Shown here one piece after another: positions 1 through 62,640 of a stretch of DNA of 64,000 bases. The notes beneath the pieces were generated by a model. The model was not told the DNA's origin, searched no databases, and saw nothing but the letters and a program-made list of their open reading frames with translations. Position numbers and translations under genes: made by a program. Origin of the DNA: Artemia franciscana (Eukaryota > Arthropoda > Branchiopoda > Anostraca > Artemiidae); contig NC_088880.1 in NCBI RefSeq assembly GCF_032884065.1, positions 34,536,008 to 34,600,007 of the forward strand. The letters are read 5' to 3'. The stretch's first letter is position 1; every line of letters begins with the position of its first letter.

Positions 1-340
1 CTCCCTCTATCACTCCCTTAAAACCGCCTCTGAAGATATTCCACAATATCAAAAATGTATGTATTGAACGCAACACATTCCAGACTGAGGGATCATAGTA
101 GGAATTCCTTATACAGAAGTCAAATCCATTTGTAGGGGTCAGAATAACAGCAATATAAATGGTTCTAGAAAGCTCAATATACACAAAAGCTTTACCCACT
201 TTCTGGGGTTAAGAATCTCAGTGTAAAAAGGGTCTTGTTTTAAAGTGGTTTTTCCTAATTGTTTAGGGTTTCATTGTGCCCCTTATCTGCACTTTTGCTA
301 ATTTTATGTTGACTTTTGTTACATTGGATTGTTGTTACAG

Positions 341-378
341 GTTCAGCGCCAGTTGGAGGCAGCAGCTATGGTCGTTAA
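341..378 (+). CDS. Candidate last coding exon of a plus-strand host gene (partial)
   Basis: A pyrimidine-rich tract ending in ttgttgttacag (to 340) looks like a 3' splice site. If the exon is entered with two bases left over from the previous codon, it reads SAPVGGSSYGR and stops at TAA 376-378. A canonical AATAAA follows at 457-462, about 80 bases after the stop, as expected for a terminal exon. The Gly/Ser/Tyr/Arg-rich tail resembles the ends of some RNA-binding proteins, but it is far too short to name a family. An alternative frame from 341 also stays open to a TAG near 418 and cannot be excluded. The rest of the gene would lie left of the window. It would be convergent with the CaMKII gene on the other strand. 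Confidence 0.35.
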
Positions 379-456
379 GTTCCCAAATCTACACTTGTTG
401 TTCAACTCACCTATTGTTTAGTTATGATTGAGTTTTTATACCGAAGCGTGAAATAT

Positions 457-462
457 AATAAA
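457..462 (+). terminator. Candidate poly(A) signal AATAAA
   Basis: AATAAA lies about 80 bases after the TAA of the candidate terminal exon at 341-378. The position suits cleavage a few tens of bases downstream. AATAAA is common by chance in AT-rich DNA, so the support is positional only. Confidence 0.35.
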
Positions 463-478
463 GAGTTATTTTAGCTAC

Positions 479-3404
479 AAAGGCGTAAATTTTATAAAGG
501 CAATTTTATGGTTGAGAGGAAGGCTTCACAGTATTAATCAATCACAAACATGTTCAAGGAAGACTTCATTTTATTATGATGAAGAAATTACAAAAGATTG
601 ATTTTGAAGGTTATTTAAGCCACTCATCTAGAAATGATTAAAGACAGAAATTAAACATTAGTTTTTTGGAGTGTTTTCCAGGTGGAAATTCCAATTCAAT
701 TCGTGTTTCATATTTAATGTGAAATAACTACGAACCTGGAACAATTTGTTTTCTAATACCTTAATACGCATTAAAATTTATTATCAAAATATGAATAATA
801 CTAAAGAGTAAAATATGAAAAATATGAGTGTTGATGCATTAATACTCATCAATTCTCCTCAAATAGGTCATTTGTCTCTAGTTTTCTCAATTTGAGGATG
901 CAGAAGTTAATAACCTGGAATGAAAAATTTAATTTTAGTTAATATAAGTATTATTAGCTTTTTGTCAACCCCGGAACACCCTCTTGGTTTGGAAGCTGCC
1001 GTGGATCAGAATTTCAACTGGAAACGGCAAAAGGGTGAGCTAAATAATTTAGAAAAATACGTACAGAGGAAGTATTGATCAGGCCTACAACGATTATCTT
1101 TTATGTTTAAAAAGTACATATTTATAGGTATGTTTTTTGATTGGATAGGGCTTCAGAAATATCCCCACCTCTGGCTACACCACTGACGATTTTAATAGAA
1201 ACTAAATACGCACGAACGTGCGTATGTATACGAATAGCTTTAGGACAGGTACCCCGAAATATTTTTTAACATGATGTAATTTTTTGACCATGCATGTTCT
1301 ACAGGCTAAACACGAATTTTGTCCTTCTCGCCTTGCGACTGTAATTTTTTTAAACAAATATTTACCTTACAGCTGATTTCAACGGTGTTGAACATAGAAA
1401 TTGCGAGATATAAATTAACTCTTCTAATGAAATTTATTCAAAATTTCTAGAACAGAAGATATTCTTAAGGAGGTCAGAAGGATAAAGATGCTATGATCTT
1501 AATTTCTTTGTAATATATTCCAGATGGGGAAAAAGAACCTGATAATTGGAAATTTTGGGCTTTTTTAAATTTTGGCACCCTCTCTTTCTATCAATTACTG
1601 TAGTTCTCACAAAAGGGAAAAAAACACATAAACACATACGTGAATTACAAAGAGCAACTATCAATATAATATACATGCTTTATTTTTCTTTCCTTGGTTT
1701 TTAGCAAGCAGGTTTTACCAGACAAACCGAAGATGGTTTTAAACATAAAAGTCCCAAAGAATAGGTTAAAATTTCTAATGAAGGTCATTTCAGCATTTAT
1801 AATATAGTGAAGGCCTTTTCTTAAAGTTCTGGCCCTGATATGACTATTACATTATAAATGAAAAATTTTCCCATAGTCAAAACATAGATTTTTCCAGTTT
1901 CGATCCCTCCGTTTGTGTAAGAATATTGGTACTTGTTTCCCCCCCCTAAATCTATCAATTTAGTATGAAAATTAGGCACCTGAGTTAAAAACTAGTTTGA
2001 CCTATTTTGCAGTTCAATAAAATTAACCAATAAAACCTTTGCAATAGAGTTTCAAAAACTTCATTTCCCATAGGTATCTTGTGACACTACGCTTTTTGTA
2101 ATACTTGATATTTTTAACACCTCATCCCTATTAGAAAATTAGTTGAAGACTTTTCTATGAGGACTGATTGGAAAGTTTAACTTTTAAATTTGAACATATC
2201 ATGTGCCTATTTTTGCCCTTTTAAAATCGATACCTAAGTAACATTTATTCTCCTTAAATCGTACAGATAACTTCGAAGACAACACTGCCTTTCCATGACA
2301 AAAAATATAACAGTTCAAAATAGGGATGAAACCTTTTAATCGACAGTAAAATAAATATAAAATTTTTAACTGAATATTTCGGACACATATACAATGTCCA
2401 ACATCAGCAGTAAAACTAAAAGTGTTTACTGCTCGATATAGAGTAAGTCTGAATAACGGTACTGCTGAGTGATAAATCTTTTTATTGCAAAAAAAAATGT
2501 TGCTGACGTTTGTTTAAAGTTATATCCATTTATATACATATATCCAGTTTACAACAAGAAAAAAATTAGGTCCAAGCAGCAGAATACACATAGATTAAAA
2601 CTAATGATAGCTTCAGGTGATCAAATTTGATATCAAAATTCAATAAACAAACCTGAATAATATTTCTAAGTTCTGAATATTGTTTTGCTTCTCAATAATT
2701 CGCTCTAAAATTTAAAGTGTGCGTAAATACGTATATGAATCACATTGTACCCGATTCACAGTATTCGTTGATGAGCATCCAAAGTAAATGCTCTATCGGA
2801 GTTTCCGAAGAAATTGTGGAAAAAAGTTTCAACTTCGTTCTTCTCTATGGAAAACTACCAATCAGAACCTCTGAAGTTACAACCTGTGTCTACTAGCCTA
2901 CGCTATAGTCTACCGTCGATTGGATATGGATGGGTAAAATTGCTGCCGCACAATTCAAACCAAAATTGTCCGTCGGAATTGAAGTTGTCTGTGCGCATTT
3001 GTGTGGTTTAGTTTCACCAAAATTGTATTATTTGGGGCCTCAATAGGGGAAATCTAACTCTTAATTCCCCCTTAATACATCATTTCACTGTTTATTTGAA
3101 GATTCCTATAAGAATTTTAAAGTCAACATTAATAATTGCTTAAATTACTTTCAGTCGTATCTAAAAGTTTGATCTTTAAACATAAATAGTATTATTTTGC
3201 GACTATGGCATTCTTTTAAATCAAAATTGGACAAAAAAGAGCCAACTATGCCGAAAACGTCAATAGGATTTGATAAAATGTAACTGAGCTTGATACTTTC
3301 GTCGCTTGTATTTTTTTCTTTCCTTCGCAAACACGAGATACAACTATTGAGAGGCAAGAATGATAGTTTGTAGCCGAGATTCTAATGAACAACAAAGTCA
3401 CCGA
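479..3404. other. Unassigned AT-rich intergenic DNA
   Basis: I see no gene, recognisable transposon protein or clear tandem repeat here. The only reading frames are short and low in information. A hammerhead-like hairpin at 2372-2407 is listed separately. Confidence 0.5.
2372..2407 (-). other. Hammerhead-like hairpin motif, copy 1
   Basis: Read on the minus strand, a CTGATG box is followed by GGACA, a short AT-rich loop and TGTCC, then GAAATATTC. The layout matches two other sites (37253-37287 and 47592-47627). CTGATGA, a stem and GAAA form the hammerhead ribozyme core, and Penelope-like retroelements are known to carry hammerheads. Here the sixth and seventh core positions deviate and no stem I/III was demonstrated, so catalytic activity is not claimed. 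Confidence 0.3.
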
Positions 3405-3480
3405 GAAATACAAAAAAAAAGAAATACAAAATACAAAAATACAAAAAAACTACAAAAATACAAAATACAAAGACTACAAC
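3405..3480. repeat. A-rich (AAATAC)-like simple repeat
   Basis: Runs of aaatac, aaaaatac and aaaaaaac alternate for about 75 bases. The two overlapping short frames here are artefacts of this low-complexity tract. Confidence 0.7.
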
Positions 3481-3516
3481 ACTTTATACAATTGGCTTGA
3501 TTCAAATTTAAAGTGC

Positions 3517-3658
3517 GGGTGCCCGAAGGGCACCCCCATAGGTCGCAAAAAAACATCAAAATTGCTGCTTGAGCTTGGCAAGCACAAAAAAGGACAGAAA
3601 AGGGAATAACGAGTTCCCCGTTCACTGCCCGTGTCAAGACATTCCCCAGTCTTGACAC
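3517..3658. repeat. Two perfect GC-rich hairpins in an unclassified unit
   Basis: At 3517-3535, gggtgccc and gggcaccc pair perfectly around a GAA loop. At 3631-3658, gtgtcaagac and gtcttgacac form a perfect 10-bp stem with an 8-base loop. The local GC content is much higher than in the flanks, which suggests an inserted unit of about 250 bp (roughly 3481-3740). Terminators, small RNAs or transposon termini are all possible; nothing here decides between them. Confidence 0.5.
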
Positions 3659-3769
3659 TCTCGCCCCGAGTCAATCGAATGTCACGGAAGACGGCGGCAG
3701 AACTTATCAGCCCTGATTTTAACAAAATTTTCATTTGTGTACAAATATTTTCATTTGTTTAAATATGAC

Positions 3770-4010
3770 TCTCCTTACTTTATACGGAAAAAGATATGGG
3801 AAAAATGAAAATTTCGGATTCAATTTGCATATACGTTCTGCCATCTGCGCTATCTACTTTATTTTATTTGAAATAAATTACAAAAAAAACTACAAAATGA
3901 TTATAAATGTTAGACTATTTATTTAAAATATTCCAGCCCCAAAATTTCTGCGATCAGGTTAAGTGCTCCATCTGCCCCCAAGGGGCAAAGGGGGTCTGCA
4001 TCTGGAGAGC
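3770..4010. repeat. Dispersed repeat family R-A, copy 1
   Basis: The phrase gatatgggaaaaatgaaaat, the following stretch to ctactttattttat, and caaaatgattataaatgtta recur in the same order at 38660-38890 and in part at 30135-30290. The copies are diverged. No coding content is seen. Confidence 0.55.
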
Positions 4011-5189
4011 CAAGGGTATGGTCTATATAATAATTTTTCTCCAAATTATTTGAAGAGGGGGCAACTGCCCACCCTTCCCCTCCCAGACGACACCGCTGTC
4101 TGCCCCTCCCCTCAGAAAAAACTTATGCTCTCTCCTAACTACCCACACAAAAATATGACATGTATTTTCAGTCTTTTTTTTAATGTTGATAATTTTGCCT
4201 TTTTTGACTAAGAATAGAGGAGGGGATCCTATTTTAGTATTTTCTCATTTTTTCATTAGTTAATACCCAAAATGTTAAAGGCAAATAAAAATGTTGAACA
4301 AAGAAAATGATATAAATTAATCGGCATGGTGACGGTAAACTAGAACATGGTTGATTTAAAAAGTACATTGCTTGTCGATTTTATTCAAAATCTTAGATTG
4401 CGTTGATTCTCTTTAGAGGAATTTAAAGATCCTCAATTATCTTCTCTGGAAAGTGGGGGTTCTAAAAATTGAAAAATAGCTTCTAATAATTAGTTGTATT
4501 GCACAAAAAATCTAAGTTATGCCAAAACATTAAAAATACAGGGTGAGAATTTCAAAGTAGGTTCAATGTCAGCGATAAGTGAAATTTCTTTAGGTTTTAA
4601 GCGACAATTCCTGTATTCTGAGCTCCATTTCAAACTCTCGATAAACCATTTTTTTTATATGTGTATGATCATTTTTTTACTGGGAATCTCAGCTACTTTT
4701 CTAGCAATCTCAGTTGGGTTTCGTGCATTCTCGGTGACATTTCTTGGAATTTTCGGCAAGATTTCTTGTAGTCTTGACACCAAATTGTATAACTCAAGTG
4801 CGAGTTTTTTTTTATATCGGCAACGTTTGAATATTCCTAGTTTACAGATTTGGGGGGGGGGGGCTCACCTCTAATATTGTCACTTTCAGCTTCAACAGAG
4901 TATAAACTTGGGTACACAAAAAAAAGACCTGAGAAGCAGAAACAGTAATCTTGTTTACAGTTTACGTGATCTGGATAACATCTTGTGCATTCTCAGCTCC
5001 TTTCTATCCAATTTTGATCCAAAAGGAATCCTACATAATAATATTTTTCAATCCAGAACAAACACAAATAAATGAAAAAAAAGTTTAAAAAAATCATTGG
5101 GGAATCTACTTAGCCTCTTTGCCCTCTACCTATATCGGTTAGTATATTGATAAACACCTCCTTTGCTCTAGACCTACTGCAAATTGAAG
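4011..5189. other. Unassigned non-coding DNA
   Basis: No gene is recognised. A 126-codon frame at 4494-4874 on the plus strand is AT-rich, ends in a G homopolymer and has no recognisable motif; I treat it as chance. Confidence 0.45.
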
Positions 5190-6311: not shown

Positions 6312-7810
6312 ATATAGTTACTATATGCTTTATACTATACTGAAAAAAGTGATCTGAAAGTTTTATTAATTTATTCCGAACACTTTGTAGCCCTTGTAAA
6401 CTCCTCATAATTCTGTATCAAACAGTTCGTGGTAACGAACTGTAGTAAGGAGCGACCCGGCTCAATAGTAACCAAAACTCTAAAAAATGGAATTTTGATA
6501 CCAATAGCTACATCAAAAGAATCGCATTTTAATGCTGGTGTTAAATATATAAGTTTCATCAAGTTTAGTCTTACCCATCAAAAGTTACGAGCCTGAGGAA
6601 ATTTGCGTTATTTTAGAAAATAGATTCATAGAATCTTAACGAAAATCACACCATCAGACTCAGCGTATCAGAGAACCCAACTGTAGAAGTTTCGAGCTCT
6701 TATCTACAAAAATGTGGAATTTTGCATTTTTTGCCAGAAGGCAGATCACGGATGCGTGTTTATTTGTTTGTTTTTTTTTGTTTTTTTTTCCCAGGGGTGA
6801 TCGTATCGACCCAGTTGTCCTAGAATGTTGCAAGAGGGCTCATTCTAACGGAAATTAAAAGTTCTAGTGCCCTTTTTAAGTGCCCAAACAAATTGGAGGG
6901 CATCTAGGCCCCCTCCCACGCTAATTTTTTTCCCAAAGTCAACGGATCAAAATTCTGAGATAGCCATTTTATTCAGCGTAGTCGAAAAACCTTATAACTA
7001 TGTCTTTGGGGACGACTTATTCCCCCACAGTCCCCTTGGGAGGGGCAACAAGTTACAAACTTTGACCTGTGCTTACATATAGTAATGGTTATTGGGAAGT
7101 ATACAGGCGTTTTCAGGAGGATTTTTTTGGTTTGGGGGAGGGGTTGAGAAGAGGGGGATATGCTGGGGGAACTTTCCTTCGAGAATTTGTAATGGGAGAA
7201 GAAAATTTCCATGAAGGGAGAGCAGGATTTACTAGCATTATTTAAAAAAAAACAATTAAAAAATAAAAGTGAAAAAGCTTTTTCAGCTGGAAGTAAGGAA
7301 CAGCAATAAAACTTAAAACAAACAGAAATTATTACCCATATGAGGGGCTCACCTCCTTCTAATACCTCGCTCTTTACGCTAAAGTATTTTCGGTAATTTC
7401 AACTACTTATTCTACGGCTTTTGTGATTCAGGGGGTCATTCTTAATGAATTGGGATAAAATTTAAGCTTTAGTGTAAAGAGCGAGGTACTGACGATGGGC
7501 GAATCCCCTCATATATGTAATAAAAACATGAGAATACAAAAGTTCTTTACGTAAGCTAATTTATAAGTTACGTAAATCTTTTACCAATAAAAAGATTCGT
7601 AAAAAATTAAAAGTTCTAGTTGCCTTTTTAATTAACCAAAAAATCGGGGGGCAACTAGGCTTCGTCCCCCGCTCTTTTTTCTCAAAATCATTCGATCAAA
7701 ATTATGAGAAAGCCATTAAGCCAAAAATAAAAATATGCAAATTTCGTTTAGATTATTCCTCTGCGGAGAGCCAAAATCAAAACATGCATTGATTCAAAAA
7801 CGTTCAGAAA

Positions 7811-39720: not shown

Positions 39721-40064
39721 TTATAACACCGTTAGCAAAGAGAAACAACGATCCAATCAATAAAAAACAATGGTTGCATCTACATCTACCACCTTGTAAA
39801 AGACGAACACGGCCCACAACAAACCAAGAAAATCACCTGAAACCCCTAAAAATGTTGTCAGACTGAATCACAAAATACTTCATTAGAATTGTTTTGGCCG
39901 ATAACTTTATATAGAAACTAGCTTTTGGGGTGACGCTTCGCGCCACCCCAACACCTAGTTGGTGGGGGCGCTTCGCACAACCCCCCAAGCCCCCCCGCGC
40001 GCGTAAGTCGCTACGCGCCATATTAGTTACGCGCCATTGTAGTTGTGTCCTTTTGTATTAATGC

Positions 40065-40146
40065 TAAAGCCAAGGCTCGAACCTGGAACCTCTCGGACCT
40101 AGAACCTGGAACATAACGCTTTACCAACTCAGCTACTTCGGCTTGA
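40065..40146 (-). repeat. tRNA-like module inside Helitron B
   Basis: The minus strand contains tagctgagttggtaaagcg (A-box-like) and ggttcgagcctt (B-box-like), about 50 bases apart, with AGCC and GGCT able to pair at the ends. The module sits between two direct copies of ggacacaactacaatg. The same module is on the plus strand at 60742-60826. The cloverleaf is too decayed to call a tRNA gene; it looks like a pol III promoter unit or SINE head captured by the Helitron. Confidence 0.6.
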
Positions 40147-40303
40147 ATACGTTCGTTTTTGAATTGGTATATGATGAAATAATTCAGACGTCATAGGCGG
40201 ACACACATTGTAGTTGTGTCCCTGTGTCCAACCTGTGAATATAGATAGATAAATATATGTATTTATAACTACGTAAAACTACGTATTTTTCACTACGTAG
40301 AAC

Positions 40304-40573
40304 TTACGAATATACAACATTCTTTGCTGTCACATTGTCTGTCCACATAAATAGATTGTCAGGTTTACCAACTCTTGAACATGCAACATAATAATTGTCC
40401 ATGGGAAAACAATCCGTATTCAGATCTATACCGCATTTTTCTAACGATTGCCCTTGAGCTTTGTTGATGGTGATTGCTAATCGAACATTCCCTGTGTCCC
40501 CGTCGTCATTTATATACCCCCCTGTGCCCCCGGCGTCCCCGTTGTAGTTGTGTCCCTGTGTCCTGATCGTCAT
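40304..40573 (-). pseudogene. Helitron B: helicase C-terminal remnant fused to minisatellite
   Basis: The frame begins in minisatellite DNA (GGYINDDGDTGNVR), then reads LAITINKAQGQSLEKCGIDL (helicase motif V region), [15 protein letters not shown] (motif VI) and [10 protein letters not shown]. These are the last Pif1-like helicase motifs of Helitron proteins. No P-loop or Rep domain is linked to it. Small changes (FPMDNYYVA for FSHGQLYVA) show it is decayed. Confidence 0.75.
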
Positions 40574-40650
40574 TTATATTCCCTGTGTCCTGGTCGTCAT
40601 TTATATTCCCTGTGTCACGGTCGTCATTTGTGTCCCGGTATCCCAGTCTG
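40495..40650 (-). repeat. Minisatellite (GACGACCGGGACACAGGGA-type) in Helitron B
   Basis: On the minus strand, repeated words gacgacc(g/a)(t/g)gacacaggga with atataaat spacers. Same family as 61230-61455 and 62320-62550, always just upstream of the helicase remnant beginning cgattagcaatcac. Confidence 0.8.
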
Positions 40651-40894
40651 TAATTTCTCTTTGAGTGTTTTTTCTTTTTAGTTTTTTACCTTTTTTCTTT
40701 TTTCAGTTTTCTTTTTCTTCTTTATTTTTCAGCGTCACTATGAAATACATATCGCCGAACCTTTGTTTTTTTTTTAACTAAAATCTGGTAGGCATTGATG
40801 ACCTTATCCAAGTCAAAATCCCAAACCCAATCATCATCGCTATCATTTTCAGTTTTGATATGTTTTGACTTTCGCTGTCCATGTGGATTTTCAT

Positions 40895-41125
40895 CTAACT
40901 GCGCGATTTTGCGTTCTTTAGCCGCAAGCCTGTTTTCTTGCTGTTCTTGAGATTCCTCGGCACGCTTTCTTTTCTTACTTTCTCTATCAGCCGCAAGCCT
41001 GTTTTCTTGCTGTTCTTGTGATTCCTCGGCACGCTTTCTTTTCTGACTTTATCAGCCGCAAGTCTTTTGGCATAGACTCTTTGAGCAGTTTCCTCGGCTG
41101 TTGCCATTGTAGGTTCTTCAGTCAT
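40895..41125 (-). pseudogene. Helitron B: N-terminal remnant
   Basis: Starts MTEEPTMATAEETAQRVYAK, the family's N-terminus, followed by a frameshifted KR/ES-rich repeat (in frame it would continue as the AADRESKKRKRAEES-type repeat seen in Helitron A). Only two repeat units remain before the A/T-rich tract. No zinc-finger segment is kept. Confidence 0.75.
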
Positions 41126-41498
41126 TTTACAATTAAAAATGTCTCTTTCAACGATTTTCTTACAATTAAAAATTTGTCTTTGAATGATTTTTTTAAATAC
41201 TTATAATGACGTCATATACTAAACATCGTCATAACAAACATGACGACAACTAACTTCATGACGACATACAGCTCAAACATTATAATGACGTCAGTCGACA
41301 GACAGACAGACACATAAACAAACAACTTATCTATCTATATATATAAAAATAAGTTGTCTGTCTGTGTGTCTGTCTGTGGATCAGGTGACGTCATGTTTCT
41401 GTGTTGACTGACGTCATGAAATTAGTTGTCGTCATTTTTGCTTTGACGGTGACGTCATTCAAGATATTTAAGACATATGTTCACGTAGAAATCTATTA

Positions 41499-42272
41499 AT
41501 GTTTAAGTTTACAATGACTAATGAACTTACCATGGCAGAAGCCGATGAAGATGCTCAAAGAGTCTATGCCAAAAAACTTGCTGCTGATAGAGAAAGTCAG
41601 AAAAGAAAGCGTGCCGAGGAATCAAAAGAACAGCAAGGAAACAGGCTTGAGGCTGATAGAGAAAGAAAGAACAGAAAGCGTGCCGAGGAATCAAAAGAAC
41701 AGCAAGGAAACAGGCTTGAGGCTGATAGAGAAAGAAAGAACAGAAAGCGTGCCGAGGAATCAAAAGAACAGCAAGGAAACAGGCTTGAGGCTGATAGAGA
41801 AAAAAAGAACAGAAAGCGTACCGAGGAACTACCAGAGCAACGCGGAAGCAGACTTGCTGCTAAAAGAGAAAGTGAAAAAAGAAGGCGTGCCGAGGAATTA
41901 CAAGAACAGCAAGAAATCAGGCTTGCTGCTGATAGAGAAAGTAAGAAAAGAAAGTGTGCCGAGGAATCACAAGAACAGCAAGAAATCAGGCTTGCTGCTG
42001 ATAGAGAAAGTAAGAAAAGAAAGCGTGCCGAGGAATCAGAGCAACCTGAAAGTTATCGCCTGGCATTCAGGTACAACCCAGTCGATGATTATAGCTTGAG
42101 TAGATGTGTTCAAATCGGGACAATGTCTAAAATTTGTCCCTATTGCAAGGCCTTGAAATTCAATGGTGAAACAATGGGAATGTGTTGCGCCTCAGGAAAA
42201 GTTAAACTTCCTCTATTGGCTGCACCACCAGAGCCATTGAAGACGAATGAATGCTTGCCTGAAAAATTCTAA
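41499..42272 (+). pseudogene. Helitron A: N-terminal protein with KR/E-rich repeats and zinc motif
   Basis: 257 codons. Residues 1-20 read MFKFTMTNELTMAEADEDAQ. About residues 30-185 are tandem ~21-residue repeats of the type LEADRERKNRKRAEESKEQQ, likely coiled-coil or basic helices. A Cys-rich motif follows, CPYCKALKFNGETMGMCC, then ASGKVKLPLLAAPPEPLK, as in the Helitron N-terminal domain. The reading frame then jumps at about 42243 directly into the helicase C-terminal region in another frame, giving a short chimeric end (TNECLPEKF). Everything from here through the Rep nuclease to helicase motif III is deleted. The start was chosen because the homologous frame at 52965 carries the same MTDELTMA block. 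Confidence 0.82.
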
Positions 42273-43128
42273 TTTATGGGCACACGTAAAAATATTAAAA
42301 TTAACTACAAATATGCGTGTCCGATTGCAAAACGATGACTCTGGTCAAACATTTTCAGATCAATTGCTGACAATTGGAAACGGAAAGCTCCCAGTAGACT
42401 CAATTTCAGGGCGTATACAACTACCTGCTGATTTCTGTAATTTAGTGACGTCCAAAAATGAATTGATTGAAAAAGTATTTCCGAATATTCTAAAAAATTA
42501 TAAAAATAATAAATGACTAAGTGAAAGAGCGATTCTCGCACCCAAAAATATAGACGTCCACGAAATCAACAATATTGTTTTGACCAAGATTCGAGACCAG
42601 GCAGTCCTTTACAAGTCAGTCGACACAGTTTTGGAACCAAATGAAGCGGTTAATTATCCATCTGAATTTTTAAATTCCATAGATCTTTCAGGGTTTCCAC
42701 CACACGTGCTACAACTAAAAATAGGCGTACCAATAATACTTTTAAGAAATATAAACCCACCAAAGCTTTGCAAAGGCACTCGACTTGCCGTAAAAAAAAC
42801 AATGGAAAACCTAATAGAGGCCACAATCTTGACAGGGCCTTTTGAGGGTGAGGCTGTTCTTATTCCTCGCATTCTCATGATTCCAACGGATCTGCCTTTT
42901 CAATTTAAAAGATTGCAATTCCCAATTCGATTAGCATTTGCAATCACCATTAACAAAGCTCAAGGTCAATCATTAGAAAAATGTGGTATAGATCTTAATA
43001 CTGATTGTTTTTCCCATGGACAATTGTACGTTGCATGTTCGAGGGTCGGTAAACCTGACAATCTATTTATATGCAGCGACAATTGGACAGCGAAGAATGT
43101 TGTATATCCGCAAGTTTTACGCAGTTAA
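42247..43128 (+). pseudogene. Helitron A: helicase C-terminal block, copy 1
   Basis: Reads NACLKNSNLWAHVKILKLTT, NMRVRLQNDDSG, a stop after NILKNYKNNK (TGA where copy 2 has Trp), then KNIDVHEINNIVLTKIRDQA. It continues through IGVPIILLRNINPPKLCKGT, FAITINKAQGQSLEKCG (motif V) and [16 protein letters not shown] (motif VI), and ends at VLRS. These are the 2A/2B helicase regions of Pif1-like Helitron helicases. The P-loop and DE box are lacking. Confidence 0.85.
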
Positions 43129-43322
43129 TTTGTATTGTATCTATCTATCTATCTATCTATATAAAAACGAGTTGTGTGTATGCATGTTTGTTTGTTTGTA
43201 AAAAGAGCGTTTGCATATGATGTCATTACTAGTACATACGGCTTTGTATATGCAGAGACAATGGGAAAGCCAAGAATGTTGTATATTCGCAATTTTTACG
43301 TAGTTTAACTCCTGCAGACGAA

Positions 43323-44161
43323 ATGAATGCTTGCCTAAAAAATTCTAATTTATGGGCACACGTAAAAATATTAAAATTAACTACAAATATGCGTGTCCGA
43401 TTGCAAAACGATGACTCTGGTCAAACAGTAGACTCAATTTCAGGACGTATACAACTACCTGCTGATTTCTGTAATTTAGTGACGTCCAAAAATGAATTGA
43501 TTGAAAAAGTATTTCCGAATATTCTAAAAAATTATAAAAATAATAAATGGCTAAGTGAAAGAGCGATTCTCGCACCCAAAAATATAGATGTCCACGAAAT
43601 CAACAATATTGTTTTGACCAAGATTCGAGACCAGGCAGTCCTTTACAAGTCAGTCGACACAGTTTTGGAACCAAATGAAGCGGTTAATTATCCATCTGAA
43701 TTTCTAATTCCATAGATCCTTCAGGGTTTCCACCACACGTGCTACAACTAAAAATAGGCGTACCAATAATACTTTTAAAAAATATCAACCCACCAAAGCT
43801 TTGCAATGGCACGCGACTTGCCGTAAAAAAAACAAGGGAAAACCTAATAGAGGCCACAATCTTGACAGGGCCTTATGAGGGTGAGGCTGTTCTTATTCCT
43901 CGCATTCCCATGATTCCAACGGATCTGCTTTTTCAATTTAAAAGATTGCAATTCCCAATTCGATTAGTATTTGCAATCACCATTAACAAAGCTCAAGGTC
44001 AATCATTAGAAAAATGTGGTATAGATCTTAACACTGATTGTTTTTCCCATGGACAATTGTACGTTGCATGTTCGAGGGTCGGTAAACCTGACAATGTATT
44101 TATATGCAGCGACAATTGGGCAGCGAAGAATGTTGTATATTCGCAAGTTTTACGCAGTTAA
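43323..44161 (+). pseudogene. Helitron A: helicase C-terminal block, copy 2
   Basis: Nearly identical to copy 1 and offset by 1,076 bases at its start, but with a 42-base in-frame deletion (FSDQLLTIGNGKLP missing after GQT). It has Trp where copy 1 has a stop, and a one-base frameshift near 43712 that splits it into 43323-43715 and 43739-44161. Its left junction keeps slightly more upstream helicase sequence (ctcctgcagacgaaatgaat) than copy 1. It looks like a tandem duplication or a Helitron-in-Helitron insertion, since a 5'-end-like word tctatataaaaacgagttgt precedes it at about 43157. Confidence 0.85.
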
Positions 44162-44515
44162 TTTGTATTGTATCTATCTATCTATCTATCTATATAAAAA
44201 CGAGTTGTGTGGATGCATGTTTGTTTGTTTGTAAAAAGAGCGTTTGCATATGACGTCATTATTAGTACATACGGCTTAGTATATGCACAGACAATGGGAA
44301 AGCCAAGAATGTTGTTTATTCGCAATTTTTACGTAGTTTGAAACACATATATAAATCTATCTATATTCACAGGTGGGAAACAGGGACACAACTACAATGG
44401 CGCATAACTAATATGGCGCGTAACGACTTACGCGCGCGGGGGGGCTTGGGGGGGCGTGAAGCGCCCCACCAACTAGGTGTTGGGGTGGCGCAAAGCTCCA
44501 CCCCAACAGCTAGTT

Positions 44516-44539
44516 TATATATATATATATATATATATA
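44516..44539. repeat. Short (TA)n at Helitron A 3' flank
   Basis: Starts two bases after the terminal CTAG. The following gattaaacaataaaaaaaca resembles the AT spacer (8145-8165) between the two inner hairpins of the foldback element, so this may be the insertion target. Confidence 0.8.
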
Positions 44540-46149
44540 GATTAAACAATAAAAAAACATGTTTTTTTAACGGAAAGTAAGGAGCGACATTAAAAATTAA
44601 AATTAACAGAAATTACTTCGTATATGAAAGGAGATGAAAGGAGCGGGACGTTGATGAGGAATCAGGCCCTTTCATATACGAAGTAATTTCTGTTCGTTTT
44701 AAGTTTTAATGTCACTCCTTACTTTCAGTTTAAAAAAAACTTGTTTTTTTTTTATTTCTGAACGTTTTTGAATCAATGCATGATTTGATTTTGGCTCTCC
44801 GTAGAAAAATGATTAAAAAAAATTTGCGTTTTTTTTTTGCTAAATGGCTTTCTCATAATTTCGATCGAATGATTTTGAGAGAAAAGGAGCGGGGGAGGAG
44901 GCCTAGTTACCCTCCGATTTTTGGTTACTCAAAAAGGCAACTAGAACTTCTAATTTTTTTACGAATATTTTTATTAGTCAAAGATATACGTAACTTACAA
45001 ATAGCTTACATAGCGAACTTCTGTATTCTCATGTTTTTATCAAGTATACGAATGGGTTCATCCCCTCTTCAGAACCTCGCTCTTTACACTAAAGCTAAAA
45101 TTTTGTTCCAATTTCTTAAAAATGACCCCTGAATCACAAAAGCTGTAGAATAAATAGTTGAAATTACTAAAAATACTTTAGCTTTAAAAAGAGCGAGGCA
45201 TTAGGAGGAGGTGAGCCCATCGTAATAATTTCTGTTCGTTCTAAATTTTAGTGCTTCTCCTTACTTTCAGTTGAAGAAACTGTTTCATATTTATTTTTTT
45301 ATTGTATTTTTTTAAATAATGCTAGATAATCCTGCGCTCCCTTCATGAAAATTTTCTTCCCCCATAACAAATTCCTCCAAGGAAAGTTCCTTCAGCATAT
45401 ACCCCTCTTCTCAAACCCCCAACCTAAAAATCCCCCTGAAAACGTTAGTACACTTCCAAATAACCATTACTTTATGCAAGCACTGGTCGTAGTTTGTAAC
45501 TTGTGGCCCCTCCCACGGGGACTGTGGTGGAGTATGTCGTCTCCAAAGATAGTTATAAGGTTATTTGACTACGCTGAATATAATGGCTATCTCAGAATTT
45601 TTATCTGGTGACTTTGTGAAAATAATTAGCGTGGGAGGGGGCCTAAGTGCCCTCCAATTTTTTGGTCACTTAAAAATGGCACTAGAACTTTTCATTTCCG
45701 TTAGAATGAGCCCTCTCGCAAGATTCTAGGACCACTGGGTCGATACGATTACCCCTGGGAAAAAAAAAAAAAAAAAAAACAACAAACGAACAAATAAACA
45801 CGCATCCGTGATCTGCCTTCTGGCAAAAAATACAAAATTCCAAATTTTTGTAGATAGGAGCTTGAAACTTCTACAATAGGGTTCTCTGATACGCTGAATC
45901 TGATGGCGTGATTTTCGTTAAGATTCGACTTTTAGGGGTTGTTTTCTCCTATTTTCTAAAATAAGGCAAATTTTCTCAGGCTCGTAACTTTTATGGGTAA
46001 GACTAAACTTGATTAAACTTATATATTTGAAATCAGCATTAAAATGCGACTCTTTTGATGTAGCTATTGATATAAAAATTCCATTTTTTAGAGTTTTAGT
46101 TACTATTGAGCCGGGTCGCTCCTTACTACCGTTCGTTACCATGAACTAT
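44540..46149. mobile_element. Foldback element, copy 3 (one inner hairpin and right arm)
   Basis: 44560-44745 is an inner hairpin (aaagtaaggagcgacatt at both sides, tip shortened). The right arm then follows as in copy 1, including the small arm hairpin (cctcgctctttacactaaag at about 45075 and agagcgaggcatt at 45188). It ends with gttcgttaccatgaactatt near 46149. The left arm is absent; Helitron A lies there instead. Non-coding. Confidence 0.82.
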
Positions 46150-49360: not shown

Positions 49361-49464
<104 letters not shown>

Positions 49465-49770
49465 TAGCTGTTGGGGTAGCGCTTCGCGCCCCAAGCCCCC
49501 CCGCGCGCGTAAGTCGTTACGCGCCATATTAGTTACGCGCCATTGTAGTTGTGTCCCTGTGTCCCACCTGTGAATATAGATAGATTTATATATGTGTTTC
49601 AAACTACGTAAAAATTGCGAATATACAACATTCTTGGCTGTCCCATGGTCTGTGCATATACAAAGCCGTATGTACTAATAATGACGTCATATGCAAACGC
49701 TCTTTTTACGAACAAACAATCATGCATACACACAACTCGTTTTTATATAGATAGATAGATACAATACAAA

Positions 49771-50269
49771 TTAACTGCGTAAAACTTGCGAATATACAAC
49801 ATTCTTCGCTGTCCAATTGTCGCTGCATATAAATAGATTGTCAGGTTTACCGACCCTCGAACATGCAACGTACAATTGTCCATGGGAAAAACAATCAGTA
49901 TTAAGATCTATACCACATTTTTCTAATGATTGACCTTGAGCTTTGTTAATGGTGATTGCAAATGCTAATCGAATTAGGAATTGCAATCTTTTCAATTGAA
50001 AAGGCAGATCCGTTGGAATCATGGGAATGCGAGGAATAAGAACAGTCTCACCCTCAAAAGGCCCTGTCAAGATTGTGGCCTCTATTAGGTTTTCCATTGT
50101 TTTTTTTTACGGCAAGTCGCGTGCCATTGCAAAGCTTTGGTGGGTTGATATTTCTTAAAAGTATTATTGGTACGCCTATTTTTAGTTGTAGCACGTGTGG
50201 TGGAAACCCTGAAAGATCCACGGAATTTAAAAATTCAGATGGATAATTAACCGCTTCATTTGGTTCCAA
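49771..50269 (-). pseudogene. Helitron C: helicase C-terminal segment
   Basis: Two overlapping frames, 50269-50054 (EPNEAVNYPSEFLNSVDLSG) and 50097-49771 ([52 protein letters not shown]), separated by a one-base slip in a T/A homopolymer at about 50100. Contains helicase motifs V and VI. In order after the segment at 50300-50902. Confidence 0.87.
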
Positions 50270-50299
50270 AACTGTGTCGACTGACTTGTAAAGGACTGC

Positions 50300-51351
50300 C
50301 TAGTCTCGAATCTTGGTCAAAACAATATTGTTGATTTCGTGGACGTCTATATTTTTGGGTGCGAGAATCGCTCTTTCACTTAGCCATTTATTATTTTTAT
50401 AATTTTTTAGAATATTCGGAAATACTTTTTCAATCAATTCATTTTTGGACGTCACTAAATCACAGAAATCAGCAGGTAGTTGTATACGTCCTGAAATTGA
50501 GTCTACTGGGATCTTTCCTTTTCCAATTGCCAGCAATTGATCTGAAAATGTTTGACCAGAGTCATCGTTTTGCAATCGGACACGCATATTTGTAGTTAAT
50601 TTTAATGTTTTTACGTGTGCCCATAAATTAGAATTTTTCAGGCAAGCATTCATTTCGTCTGCAGGAGTTGATCTAGGTATTATAGGTAATGTTTGCCTGA
50701 AATCTCCCGCAAGCAATATTAATGTGCTGCCAAAGGGTTTCGACTTCCCTCGCAAATCTTTCAAGCATTGATCCAGAGCCTCGAGCGATTTTTTGTGTGA
50801 CATTGTGCACTCATCCCAAATAATAAGTTTGCATTGCTGCAATACTTTACCCATCCCAGATGATTTGGAAATATTGCACGTGGGAGTTTCTGTAGAATGC
50901 AATTCAGAGGCAATTTCAAAGCGGAATGAGCAGTTCTTCCACCAGGCAGCAATGTTGCGGCTATTCCGGACGACGCAATTGCCAACGCTATATCATTTTT
51001 TGATCGAATTGATGCCAGAATTAGTTTTATCACAAACGTTTTACCAGTACCTCCTGGCGCATCCAAAACGAAAATTTCTCCAACGTTGTTATTGACACAA
51101 TGCATTATCGTATCATAAATGTCTTTTTGTTCCGACGTTAACTTGGAAATGTTATTTTGTACATACGACAATAGATCAGTCGTACTGTAACTTTGTTCAC
51201 GATCCAATTCTACACATGTCGAAACAGCAGCGATACGGTTAGGTGAAGGCATTCCCAAATCCTGAAGAGGTTTGTTTGCCATACGTACGCACAAATCTTC
51301 TATAATAACTAAAGTGTAGTTATAAATTTCTGATGTAAAACCAAAAGTCAT
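50300..51351 (-). pseudogene. Helitron C: Pif1-like helicase core
   Basis: 51351-50761 reads TSEQKDIYDTIMHCVNNN, FVLDAPGGTGKTFVIKLILA (Walker A GGTGKT), and AIASSGIAATLLPGGRTAHS (motif Ia). A frameshift at about 50900 leads to 50902-50300: CKLIIWDECTMSHKKSLEAL (Walker B DE), LILLAGDFRQTLPIIPRST (motif III, GDxxQ-like), NMRVRLQNDDSG and KNIDVHEINNIVLTKIRD. This is the superfamily 1B helicase fused to Rep in Helitrons, which unwinds DNA during rolling-circle transposition. All ATPase motifs are recognisable, but the reading frame is broken. Confidence 0.9.
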
Positions 51352-51362
51352 ATCTGACGTCT

Positions 51363-52185
51363 CTAACTGTTTCGATGGAGTATATCTTCGGACATTTTTG
51401 ACTTATATTTTTCCCATAACTCTGTAGGAGCTGATGGAGAGCAAGTTGTTAAAATGATGCCAAACAATGCACGAATTTGACTTGGGGTTGACGTTTCGCA
51501 CGCGTCATTGGTGCAGTTATCCCAGTGTTGGTCATTCTCCAATAAATTCAGAGCTTGGCATGCACTACGGTAAGTGTCATGTATAGTACCGTTTACAGTT
51601 CTCATATACTCAAAGGATGTCGGACCGGGTACACTCATCAAAAGCAGGCGTAGAAAGAAGCATTCATGTTGATTGGGGTGAACGGTGTAGAGTCTTCCTA
51701 TCGTGGTATCTTTGAAGATGGTAGGTTGGCCGTCGACTGACTTACCCTGTTTTCGACGTTCAAATACTTTATTTTTAGTATTCCACGTGTAATACGAAGG
51801 CACTTCAGTATACAGCAGTTTTTTTGCAAAAGAATCATTTTTGCAAAGCGAAAAGAAAGCGGTTAACTTTGTATCCGGTGGATTCAGGGCTCTTTGTTGC
51901 ACGTTGGTTTCCGAGAAATAAACACGTTGACCATTCTGTAAATGTACCGCTAAGTGAACAACAGCTGGACTACGTTCATGTATCGGAAATGAAAGAATTC
52001 GCCAAACAGCTTCATTACTGCTTATGTATCTTCCAGCCTGATATTGTACGATTTCGTCGATATCTTTGATTTCGGGCTGCAAGCCAAAAACTGCCATGTC
52101 ACTGCCTTTGTTGACGTATTTACATATGTATTTGATTGCCTTTACGGAGTTACAGTATTCAACGTTTATGTGTGCATTAAATGTT
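51363..52185 (-). pseudogene. Helitron C: end of Rep (tyrosine motif) and Rep-helicase linker
   Basis: Continuous frame from about 52185: INVEYCNSVKAIKYICKYVN, KGSDMAVFGLQPEIKDIDEI, then QYQAGRYISSNEAVWRILSF, TIGRLYTVHPNQHECFFLRL. The block KYICKYVNKG carries the paired tyrosines of the Helitron Rep nuclease, which cut and join DNA. The HUH metal-binding motif that should lie upstream is missing: the N-terminal ORF ends in STFKVKGQIYN and joins this block by a deletion and frameshift near 52190. The rest is the conserved region between Rep and helicase. Confidence 0.88.
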
Positions 52186-52965
52186 ATAAATTTGCCCTTT
52201 TACTTTGAAAGTAGACATAAATTCATCTGGATTTTCGATTTGGGCTCCAAACGACGTCATTTGGAAACATGAGTTATATTTTTTGATTTGTGACAAAAAA
52301 CGCTTAGATTCTGACGTAGTTCCAGTAAGGAAAGTCTTCAATGGCTCTGGTGGTGCAGCCAATAGAGGAAGTTTAACTTTTCCTGAGGCGCAACACATTC
52401 CCATTGTTTCACCATTGAATTTCAAGGCCTTGCAATAGGGACAAATTTTAGACATAGTCCCAATTTGAACACATCTACTCAAGCTATAATCATCGACTGG
52501 GCTGTACCTGAATGCCAGGCGATAACTTTCAGGTTGCTCTGATTCCTCGGCACGCTTTCTTTTCTTACTTTCTCTATCAGCAGCAAGCCTGATTTCTTGC
52601 TGTTCTTGTGATTCCTCGGCACGCCTTCTTTTTTCACTTTCTCTTTTAGTAGCAAGTCTGGTTTCATGGTGCTCTGGTAGTTCCTCGGCACGCCTTCTTT
52701 TTTCACTTTCTCTTTTAGCAGCAAGTCTGCTTTCGCGTTGCTCTGGTGGTTCCTCGGCACGCTTTCTGTTCTTTCTTTCTCTATCAGCCTCAAGCTTGTT
52801 TTCTTGCTGTTCTTTTGATTCCTCGGCACGCTTTCTTTTCTGACTTTCTCTATCAGCAGCAAGTTTTTTGGCATAGACTCTTTGAGCATCTTCCTCGGCT
52901 GTTGCCATTGTAAGTTCATCAGTCATTTTAAAGTTAAACATTAATAAATTTCTACGTGAACGCAT
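52177..52965 (-). pseudogene. Helitron C: N-terminal protein with KR/E-rich repeats and zinc motif
   Basis: 262 codons. It starts MRSRRNLLMFNFKMTDELTM; a more likely native start is the inner MTDELTMATAEEDAQRVYAK, shared by Helitrons A, B and D. About residues 35-160 are ~21-residue repeats (RESRLAAKRESEKRRRAEEL and variants), fewer than in Helitron A. Then CPYCKALKFNGETMGMCC, KVKLPLLAAPPEPLK, SKRFLSQIKKYNSCFQMTSF and ENPDEFMSTFKVKGQIYN, the Helitron N-terminal domain. It is truncated by the Rep deletion. Confidence 0.87.
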
Positions 52966-53079
52966 GTCTTAAATATCTTTAATGACGTCACCGTCATAAC
53001 AAAAATGACGACAACTAACTTCATGACGTCAGTCAACACACAAACATGACGTCACCTGACAGACACATCCACAGACAAC

Positions 53080-53084
<5 letters not shown>

Positions 53085-53159
<75 letters not shown>
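53085..53159. repeat. (TA)n microsatellite at Helitron C 5' end
   Basis: A 75-base TA run directly adjoining the Helitron leader tttatataagttg-like sequence (minus strand). Confidence 0.95.
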
Positions 53160-60228: not shown

Positions 60229-60640
60229 TACATCTACATATATATAAATAAGTTGTCTGTGGGTTATGTCTGTCGAGTGACGTCATGTCATCATGTCATG
60301 TCGTCATGAAGTTAGTTGTCGTCATGTTTGTTATGACGATGACGTCATTAAAGGTATTTGAGAAAATCGTTCAAAGACAAATTTTTAATTGTAAGAAGAT
60401 CGTGAACGGAAAAATGTTTAATTGTAAAATGACTGAAGAACCTACAATGGCAACAGTCGAGGAGATCGAGCTGCTCAAAGAGTCTATGCCAAAAAACTTG
60501 CGGCTGATAGAGAAAGTAAGAAAAGAAAGCGTGCCGAGGAATCACAAGAACAGCAAGAAAACAGGCTTGCGGCTGCTAGAGAAAGTAAGAACAGAAAGCG
60601 TGCCGAGGAATCACAATATATATGTATATATCTTCTATAT
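60229..60640 (+). mobile_element. Helitron D: 5' end and N-terminal remnant
   Basis: tctacatatatataaataag and repeated tgtctgt at about 60235-60270 match the 5' leaders of Helitrons A-C, followed by the same cgtcatgaagttagttgtcg blocks. 60429 onward starts MTEEPTMATVEE and, after a frameshift at about 60465, the AQRVYAKKLAADRESKKRKR-type repeat. It breaks off at tcacaatatatatgtatata (about 60620), where another 5'-end-like sequence begins. No zinc motif, Rep or helicase remains. Confidence 0.8.
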
Positions 60641-60741
60641 ATATAAAAAAAAGTTGTTTGTGTGTTATGTCTGTCTGTCTGTCTGTCCGCATATGACGTC
60701 TGAATTATTTCATCATATACCAATTCAAAAACGAATGTATT

Positions 60742-60826
60742 CAAGCCCGAAGTAGCTGAGTTGGTAACGCGTTATGTTCCAGGTTCTAGGTCCGAGAGGT
60801 TGCAGGTTCGAACCTTGGCTAGGTAA
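60742..60826 (+). repeat. tRNA-like module inside Helitron E
   Basis: tagctgagttgg at 60753 and ggttcgaacct at 60804 act as A- and B-box-like words. Same module, including its leader gacgtctgaattatttcatc, as 40065-40146. The T arm has four of five pairs; the acceptor stem is not intact. Confidence 0.6.
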
Positions 60827-60829
60827 AAA

Positions 60830-60970
60830 CTACAAAAAAAAACTAAAAAGAAAAAACTAAAAACTAAAAAAAACTAAAAAAACTAAAAAAAGGTAAAAAC
60901 TACAAAAAAACTAAAAAAAAACTAAAAAACTAAAAAAGAAAAAAATAAAAAAGAAAAAAAATGAAAAATA
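60830..60970. repeat. (CTAAAAA)n A-rich simple repeat
   Basis: Repeated actaaaaaa and gaaaaaa words. Further tracts at 61070-61105, 61862-61985 and 62080-62128, and the complement in Helitron B at 40655-40740. Confidence 0.85.
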
Positions 60971-61229
60971 AAGAGGGGGATTATAAATGACGACGGGGAC
61001 ACAGTGAATTTTTGATTAGCAATCACCATCAACAAAGCTCAAGGGCAATCATTAGAATCATGAGGTATAACTAAAAAAAAAGCTAAAAAACTAAAAACTA
61101 AAAAAAGGCCAATTCAAAAACGAATGTATATACAGACGGGACACCGGGACACGGGTTTAACCAGATGCGACTAAAATCGGATCGTTGTGAGATCTATATA
61201 TATAAAAATAAGTTCAAAAACGAATGTAT

Positions 61230-61455
61230 ATACAGACCGGGACAAAAATGACGACCGGGACACCGGGACACAGGGAACATAAATGACGACCGGGACACTC
61301 GAAGAGAAATTACAGACTAGGACACCGGGACACAAATGACGACCGGGAAACAGGGAATATAAATGACGACCGGGACACAGGGACACAACTACAACGGGGA
61401 CGCCGGGGGGCACAGGGGGATATATAAATGACGACGGCGACACAGGGAGTATTCG
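61230..61455 (+). repeat. Minisatellite (GACGACCGGGACACAGGGA-type), copy in Helitron E
   Basis: At least six gacgaccgggac words separated by accgggacacaaat and agggaatataaat variants. The reverse-strand frame over it, rich in PVVIYVPCVP, is an artefact. Confidence 0.85.
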
Positions 61456-61646
61456 ATTAGCAATCACCATCAACAAAGCTCAAGGGCAATCATTAGAATC
61501 ATGAGGTATAGATCTGAATACGGATTTTTTTTTCCCATGGACAATTATATGTTGCATGTTCAAGAGTTGGTAAACCAATCTATTTATATGCACAGACAAT
61601 GGGACAGCGAAGAATGTTGTATATTCGCAAGTTTTACGTAGTTCAA

Positions 61647-61762
<116 letters not shown>

Positions 61763-62213
61763 AGGTGGGAAAAAGGGACACAACTACAATGGCGCGTAAC
61801 TAATATGGCGCGTAACGACTTACGCGCACGTGGGGGCTTGGGGGGCGTGAAGCGTCCCCACCAACTAAAAAACTAAAAAGAAAAAAACTAAAAACTAATA
61901 AAAAAAAACTAAAAAAGCTAAAAAAACTAAAAAAAAAACTAAAAAAGAAAAAAAATAAAAAAGGAAAAAACTGAAAAATAAAGAGTGGGACTATAAATGA
62001 CGACGGGGACACAGGGAATGTTCGATTAGCAATCACCATCAACAAAGCTCAAGGGCAATCATTAGAATCATGAGGTATAACTAAAAACAAAATAAAAAAA
62101 AGTAAAAAACTAAAAACTAAAAAAAAGACCAATTCAAAAACGAATGTATATACAGACCGGGACACCAGGACACGGGTTTAACCAGATGCGACTAAAATTC
62201 GATCGTTGCGAGA

Positions 62214-62215
<2 letters not shown>

Positions 62216-62299
<84 letters not shown>
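62216..62299. repeat. (TA)n microsatellite in fragment F
   Basis: An 84-base TA run at the position where the sister copy (61193-61212) has only tctatatatataaaaataag. Confidence 0.95.
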
Positions 62300-62301
<2 letters not shown>

Positions 62302-62319
62302 TTCAAAAACGAATGTATA

Positions 62320-62550
62320 TACAGACCGGGACACCGGGACAAAAACGACGACCGGGACACCAGGACACAGGGCATATAAATGACGACCGGGACACTCAAA
62401 GAGAAATTACAGACTGGGACACCGGGACACAAATGACGACCGGGACACAGGGAATATAAATGACAACCGGGACACAGGGACACAACTACAACGGGGACGC
62501 CGGGGGGCACAGGGGGATATATAAATGACGACGGCGACACAGGGAATATT
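62320..62550 (+). repeat. Minisatellite, copy in fragment F
   Basis: Same order and nearly the same words as 61230-61455, with small point differences. Confidence 0.85.
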
Positions 62551-62640
62551 CGATTAGCAATCACCATCAACAAAGCTCAAGGGCAATCATTAGAATCATG
62601 AGGTATAGATCTGAATACGGATTGTTTTGGACAAAAAGGG

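Follow-up and report, generated by a model that had tools for sequence, protein, structure and literature searches.

An inverted pair of Helitrons occupies positions 39918-44541 of the 64-kb stretch of the Artemia franciscana genome analysed here (C18:34536008-34600007, hereafter the window). We hold with high confidence that this pair is of ordinary origin and that one element, Helitron A, is nested in the AT-rich 5′ leader of a related element, Helitron B, in the opposite orientation. The region consists of two related canonical Helitrons on opposite strands (Table 1). A first-pass annotation had already recognized that B on the minus strand and A on the plus strand meet at their 5′ leaders, around 41327-41350, with CTAG at both outer ends. 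The leaders are joined between 41329 and 41330, and B and A each carry a hairpin and a CTAG 3′ terminus (39918 and 44513, respectively). Its coordinates are close. However, it also described a dimer with two 3′ ends pointing outward and a core shared by both elements, and these two features are unsupported.

The 5′ end of B that is missing at the head-to-head junction is found on the far side of A. Directly after the last base of A, the plus strand reads CTAG(44513)/TTTATATATATATATATATATATATAGA(44541)/T, which is the leader core in reverse (here and below, a slash marks a junction or an insertion step). On the minus strand, this sequence, TCTATATATATATATATATATATATAAA, is the 5′ end of B, with host A before it. 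A reversed leader of this type should run ACAACTTA-TTTTTATATATATAGA-T, and the continuation of B is absent at the junction and present after A. Related leaders that are uninterrupted at this A/T step exist, such as the paralogous TATATAAATAAGTTGTTTG in locus L009. Because the 5′ end of B is found beyond the CTAG of A, the core belongs to A alone, and the unit as a whole, from its TC to its CTAG, is B with A inserted in the leader of B. The sequence TCTATCTATATATATAAAAA (41330-41349), which had been assigned to both elements, is A's own 5′ end, the leader of B stops at ACAACTTA (41329), and the right edge of the unit is a 5′ TC and not a second outward CTAG. The outer element resumes beyond the insert, as in a nested Helitron, both in the window and at other loci. 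Within the window, the signature of the leader remnant follows CTAG at one of 142 sites on the plus strand and at none of 142 on the minus strand. Across the whole window, there is one occurrence on the plus strand (44514) and there are two on the minus strand; of the latter, the one at 41349 is A's own leader, and that at 61208 lies in a stretch with other Helitron features. The signature was defined after the case was seen; hence, this control shows its rarity, and the prediction proper concerns the other loci.

The boundaries of both elements are those of canonical Helitrons (Helitron1). On the minus strand, B reads A/TCTATATA...CTAG/T, with the 5′ TC at 44541-44540, the 3′ CTAG at 39921-39918, and the host letters A at 39917 and T at 44542; its length is 4624 bp with A and 1440 bp without A. 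Helitron A lies between A41329 and T44514 of the leader of B (A41329/TCTAT...CTAG44513/T44514) and has its own 5′ TC at 41330-41331. Each element is thus placed between A and T, by eye without a target-site duplication, and each ends in CTAG (CTRR) with a GC-rich hairpin just upstream. For neither hairpin did any of 200 shuffles fold equally well. The two arms of the unit are strong inverted repeats, and the plus strand at the head-to-head junction reads ...ACAAACAACTTA/TCTATCTATATATATAAAAATAAGTTGTCTG... and folds into a strong hairpin (z -6.5).

Table 1. Features of the Helitron A/B unit, in positions of the window.
Feature	Position	Strand	Assigned by
Helitron B, outer element	39918..44541	-	boundary letters, lengths, remnant signature, 3′ hairpin
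Helitron A, inserted element, 3184 bp, TC...CTAG	41330..44513	+	boundary letters
Displaced 5′ end of the leader of B, TCTATATATATATATATATATATATAAA on the minus strand	44514..44541 (28 bp)	-	signature scan; similar remnants at other loci
Rest of the leader of B, truncated at ACAACTTA	41141..41329	-	
5′ leader of A: core TCTATCTATATATATAAAAA, then TAAGTTGTCTG	41330..41500	+	
3′ terminal hairpin and CTAG of A	44473..44513	+	folding of the 74-nt stretch 44440-44513, z -6.9
3′ terminal hairpin and CTAG of B	39918..39958	-	folding of the 73-nt stretch 39918-39990, z -4.4
Open frame of A, largely 69-bp repeats; Pfam STPRs PF21107, E 1.4e-6	41472..42272	+	
C-terminal helicase piece of A; Pif1 2B domain, E 1.7e-17	42241..43128	+	
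Repeated helicase piece of A, second of two direct repeats about 1033 bp apart	43316..44161	+	
Helicase remnant in B	40281..40482	-	

We propose that B, a non-autonomous canonical Helitron, would have inserted first, in the minus orientation, between a host A and T. Helitron A, a related and young element, would then have entered in the plus orientation at the A/T step in the 5′ leader of B (ACAACTTA/TTTATATA...). We infer this order from which of the two leaders is interrupted. Because the A/T step is palindromic, insertion is possible in either orientation, and an inverted insertion would bring the leaders head to head and shift the last 28 bp of the 5′ end of B past the 3′ end of A. Ordinary rolling-circle machinery, supplied in trans, would have been used. 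The head-to-head layout is predicted by A/T insertion in either orientation, contrary to the earlier view that rolling-circle models do not readily account for such a pair. Of the origin suggested there, namely, two insertions at one shared core, the two insertions stand, and the shared core is replaced by sequential events, with B first and A then entering the leader of B.

The same pair of 5′ and 3′ junctions occurs elsewhere in the 1.27-Gb assembly, to which all genome-wide counts refer. The 5′ junction CAACTTA/TCTAT..AAAAATAAGTTGT has 393 exact matches (204+189), and the 3′ junction CAACAGCTAG/TTTTTATATATA (CTAG/TTTTTATATATA) has 379 (194+185); the reversed-pattern control gave 0 in both cases. 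These 379 do not include the 3′ remnant of the window, which has the variant sequence TTTATATA. Head-to-head junctions elsewhere in the core gave 722 forward and 724 reverse matches, which correspond to about 725 sites because the pattern is nearly palindromic and most of the places listed were matched on both strands. We compared the first 100 5′ junctions of the list with the 91 3′ junctions listed for that range, within 10 kb, and for 25 of the 100 a listed 3′ junction lies downstream in the same orientation; the control placements gave 0 (upstream, same orientation), 0 (downstream, opposite) and 5 (upstream, opposite). Ten of the 379 loci with a 3′ junction were fetched (L037-L046). The remnant continues to AGA, like the end of a leader, in eight of them (not in L039 and L045), and the sequence past the remnant differs between the loci. 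A head-to-head 5′ junction lies 1.5-2.3 kb upstream in four (L038, L040, L044 and L045), another leader context is present in three (L041-L043), and three have no such leader in the fetched stretch; in L037 and L046, the junction is located farther upstream, at 7342 and 4723 bp. In addition, 20 head-to-head loci (L009-L028) were selected with the window's junction as the query, which biases their junction sites towards it, and in this biased sample the junction falls exactly at ACTTA/TCTAT in 13 of the 20, as in the window. The 3′ end of the inserted partner is not assignable throughout this set, and several partners extend past the edge of the locus or continue into additional nested copies. 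L021 has a clear remnant past a 3′ end, as does L010 at a different 3′ end, and a compatible one is present in L024; the 3′ end is followed by (TA)n only in L009 and by N in L027.

At first glance, the pair might be a head-to-head dimer that arose in one event, when replication from a single core ran in both directions or folded back into a hairpin, and that moves as a 4.6-kb unit. The strong hairpin at the junction and the recurrence of head-to-head junctions by the hundreds agree with such an origin. However, strong folding at the junction would be expected of any inverted pair, the arms are different elements with leaders about 76% alike, and the missing end of B lies beyond A, which already largely refutes a one-event dimer. 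A search with the 4624-bp unit as the query gave scores for 39 of 13,785 first-look candidates. No second 4.6-kb block was found among these 39, and the window alone covers query positions 1-4624. The other 38 scored loci match A best (97-99% identity) and lack this B arm in the matches listed; these best matches start at query positions 1368-1582 (A is 1413-4596), and none of the matches listed continues colinearly into B past its leader. Some copies of A adjoin other Helitron pieces. This level of identity suggests that A is young and is mobilized without this B. Moreover, a two-way, arm-by-arm comparison of 25 head-to-head loci does not place them in one group: 14 pairs and 14 groups are obtained when at least 400 bp of both arms must be shared, and 5 pairs and 20 groups when at least 600 bp must be shared, the number being dependent on the threshold (a one-way comparison gave 8 pairs sharing both arms). 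Taken with the displaced leader, these results leave a bidirectional replication product next to no credibility.

Several observations weigh against nested insertion of A into B. For 75 of the 100 listed 5′ junctions, there is no listed exact 3′ partner downstream within 10 kb; the exact 3′ pattern misses variants, the window's TTTATATA included, and longer elements. The empty site of B, represented by 35 nt of joined host flanks with up to 3 mismatches allowed, had 0 matches in its own assembly. The remnant is mostly (TA)n and, as a single case, could be a microsatellite target. Finally, parts of both arms of the window are also present in L010 and L011, and that group may descend from some older common composite. 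The third of these points corresponds to two independent, side-by-side insertions in a (TA)n microsatellite, with B truncated at its 5′ end and the (TA)nAGA tail belonging to the host, and (TA)n does follow many 3′ ends in the fetched loci. However, the tail ends in AGA/T, which is leader-like, and remnants of this kind lie downstream of 25 of 100 5′ junctions in the predicted orientation, against 0, 0 and 5 in the control placements. We consider a microsatellite target very improbable.

The fourth point bears on amplification of a composite. At the 400-bp threshold, the window groups with L010, L011 and L016, and L010 and L011 match it at 85% or more over about 450 bp on the A side and over 822 and 667 bp, respectively, on the B side. 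Because the two-way recount ties these two loci closer to the window, we give more weight to the possibility that B with an A-like element already nested in it was amplified and that the locus is a copy and not the original insertion. With a 5′ TC and a 3′ CTAG retained, such a composite could be mobile as one unit, and among the other loci there are five pairs with at least 600 bp of both arms in common. Against this, no second locus with both arms was found among the 39 scored of the 13,785 candidates, and A is 97-99% identical to its scored copies, whereas in L010 and L011 the B arm matches piecewise at 83-89%. Judged from these identities, A seems to be of more recent origin than the B lineage that these loci share. 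An amplified older composite is, in our opinion, distinctly unlikely, and we retain the insertion of A into the leader of B at this locus as the explanation.

Insertion into leaders is not restricted to one orientation. Head-to-tail junctions at or in the leader core, where CTAG/T is followed by AAAAATAAGTTGT within 24 bases, number 5199 (2600+2599) and are commoner than head-to-head junctions (393; about 725), and one 3′-end pattern alone has 26,692 exact matches (13238+13454). The junction counts thus indicate that AT-rich leaders are frequent landing sites in both orientations. At the A/T step ACTTA/TTTTT, however, exact patterns give 379 inverted 3′ junctions versus 1 tandem junction (CTAG/TAAGTTGT). 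Double-core 5′ junctions, TATAAAAA/TCTAT..AAAAATAAGTTGT (TATAAAAATCTAT..AAAAATAAGTTGT), number 377; the strings shown are a few repeated types, and these ends look like amplified Helitrons with two 5′ termini. According to the model of multiple 5′ termini (PMC5148889), an inverted composite would move whole, whereas re-transposition of a tandem one would start at the outer TC, stop at the first, inner CTAG and give double-core elements, and the two classes may therefore amplify differently. The 379:1 excess is probably mostly the result of composite amplification. A second ordinary cause working towards the same contrast is the flank context: among 72 leader-like matches in the fetched loci, the 5′ flank was callable in 46, with 40 TA/T, 5 AA/T and 1 CA/T, a tally that drops 26 of the 72 and comes from a set biased by locus choice, and TA/T flanks seem commoner than AA/T. 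An orientation-specific hotspot with guided head-to-head targeting, which we also considered, is weakened by the 377 double-core ends, the 5199 head-to-tail junctions and the flank context. On the target strand, an inverted leader has the complement of the incoming one, and pairing of the two, or a transposase docked to the resident leader, could set the site; we regard site- and orientation-guided entry into a relative's leader as unlikely. The leaders of four separate loci (L009, L017, L043 and L045) have a common 5′ flank, in which CTA/TCTATATATATA comes after a long run of A; this suggests another recurrent target or an amplified composite.

Inverted nesting has already been proposed in print, and it is an ordinary outcome in a genome crowded with Helitrons. 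In the account of the FoHelis of Fusarium oxysporum, composite Helitrons arise by self-insertion, with opposite orientation proposed as a model (PMC5148889). As in the A/B unit, a Helitron lies inside a Helitron, the inverted case included, and nesting there gives multiple 5′ termini. However, the FoHelis are Helitron2-like with other termini, whereas A and B have canonical TC/CTAG termini, and the entry point is an AT-rich 5′ leader. In maize, adjacent "head-to-head dissimilar" Helitrons detected by HelitronFinder were attributed to consecutive insertions, with support from polymorphism between lines (PMC2267711). Two unlike Helitrons abut in both systems, but the relevant text of that paper describes a head-to-tail CTAG/TC junction despite the wording of its abstract, whereas A and B are inverted and nested. 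Bat and silkworm have tandem arrays of Helitrons, which are attributed to bypass of a termination signal (PMC4067079); the elements likewise abut in clusters, but bypass would give head-to-tail and not inverted pairs. No description of a leader hotspot for inverted Helitron insertion was found in the literature searched, which left out most subscription journals. The apparent challenge to rolling-circle models is removed, and there is a simple check to be made before an inverted pair is called a dimer, which is to seek the missing 5′ end past the 3′ end of the partner. Furthermore, a genome with 26,692 exact 3′-end matches is a rich natural record of Helitron landing sites, and because leader targets have a known pre-insertion sequence, it could serve to measure target choice.

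A Pfam scan of six open frames gave matches to Pif1 2B, PIF1 and Herpes_Helicase, STPR repeats, and one weak unrelated match. The coding pieces of B are of the same kinds as those of A and shorter, and the repeat-rich frame of A would represent the start of the Helitron open reading frame. No Rep domain, and thus no RepHel, was found in these six frames, and on this basis the rolling-circle machinery would be supplied in trans. From their sequences, both A and B look like non-autonomous derivatives. Directly behind the helicase stop codon, A contains two copies (43138-43240 and 44171-44273) of a second leader-like sequence, TCTATCTATCTATCTATCTATATAAAAACGAGTTGTGTG, which belong to the direct repeat listed in Table 1. 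Several relatives in other loci have this layout too, and A therefore looks like a composite with inner 5′-like ends. In B, ARAGORN reports a tRNA-like sequence at 40062-40133 on the minus strand, tRNA-Pyl (cta). It is probably a degenerate fragment of tRNA origin that was captured, and the sequence surrounding it is also present in other fetched loci.

The left host flank (39771-39917) resembles an old dispersed repeat with 40 further matches at 70-82% identity, most of them within this stretch. The right host flank (44548-44751) is an inverted repeat with 84-nt arms and belongs to a dispersed repeat that is very abundant (40 scored of 13,815 first-look candidates). A paralogous empty host site was sought through these repeats and rejected, as no copy looked at joins the left and right flanks and the joined flanks had 0 matches. 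Elsewhere in the window, at 49464-53104 on the minus strand and at 60232-62628 on the plus strand, there are other copies or fragments of these Helitron families.

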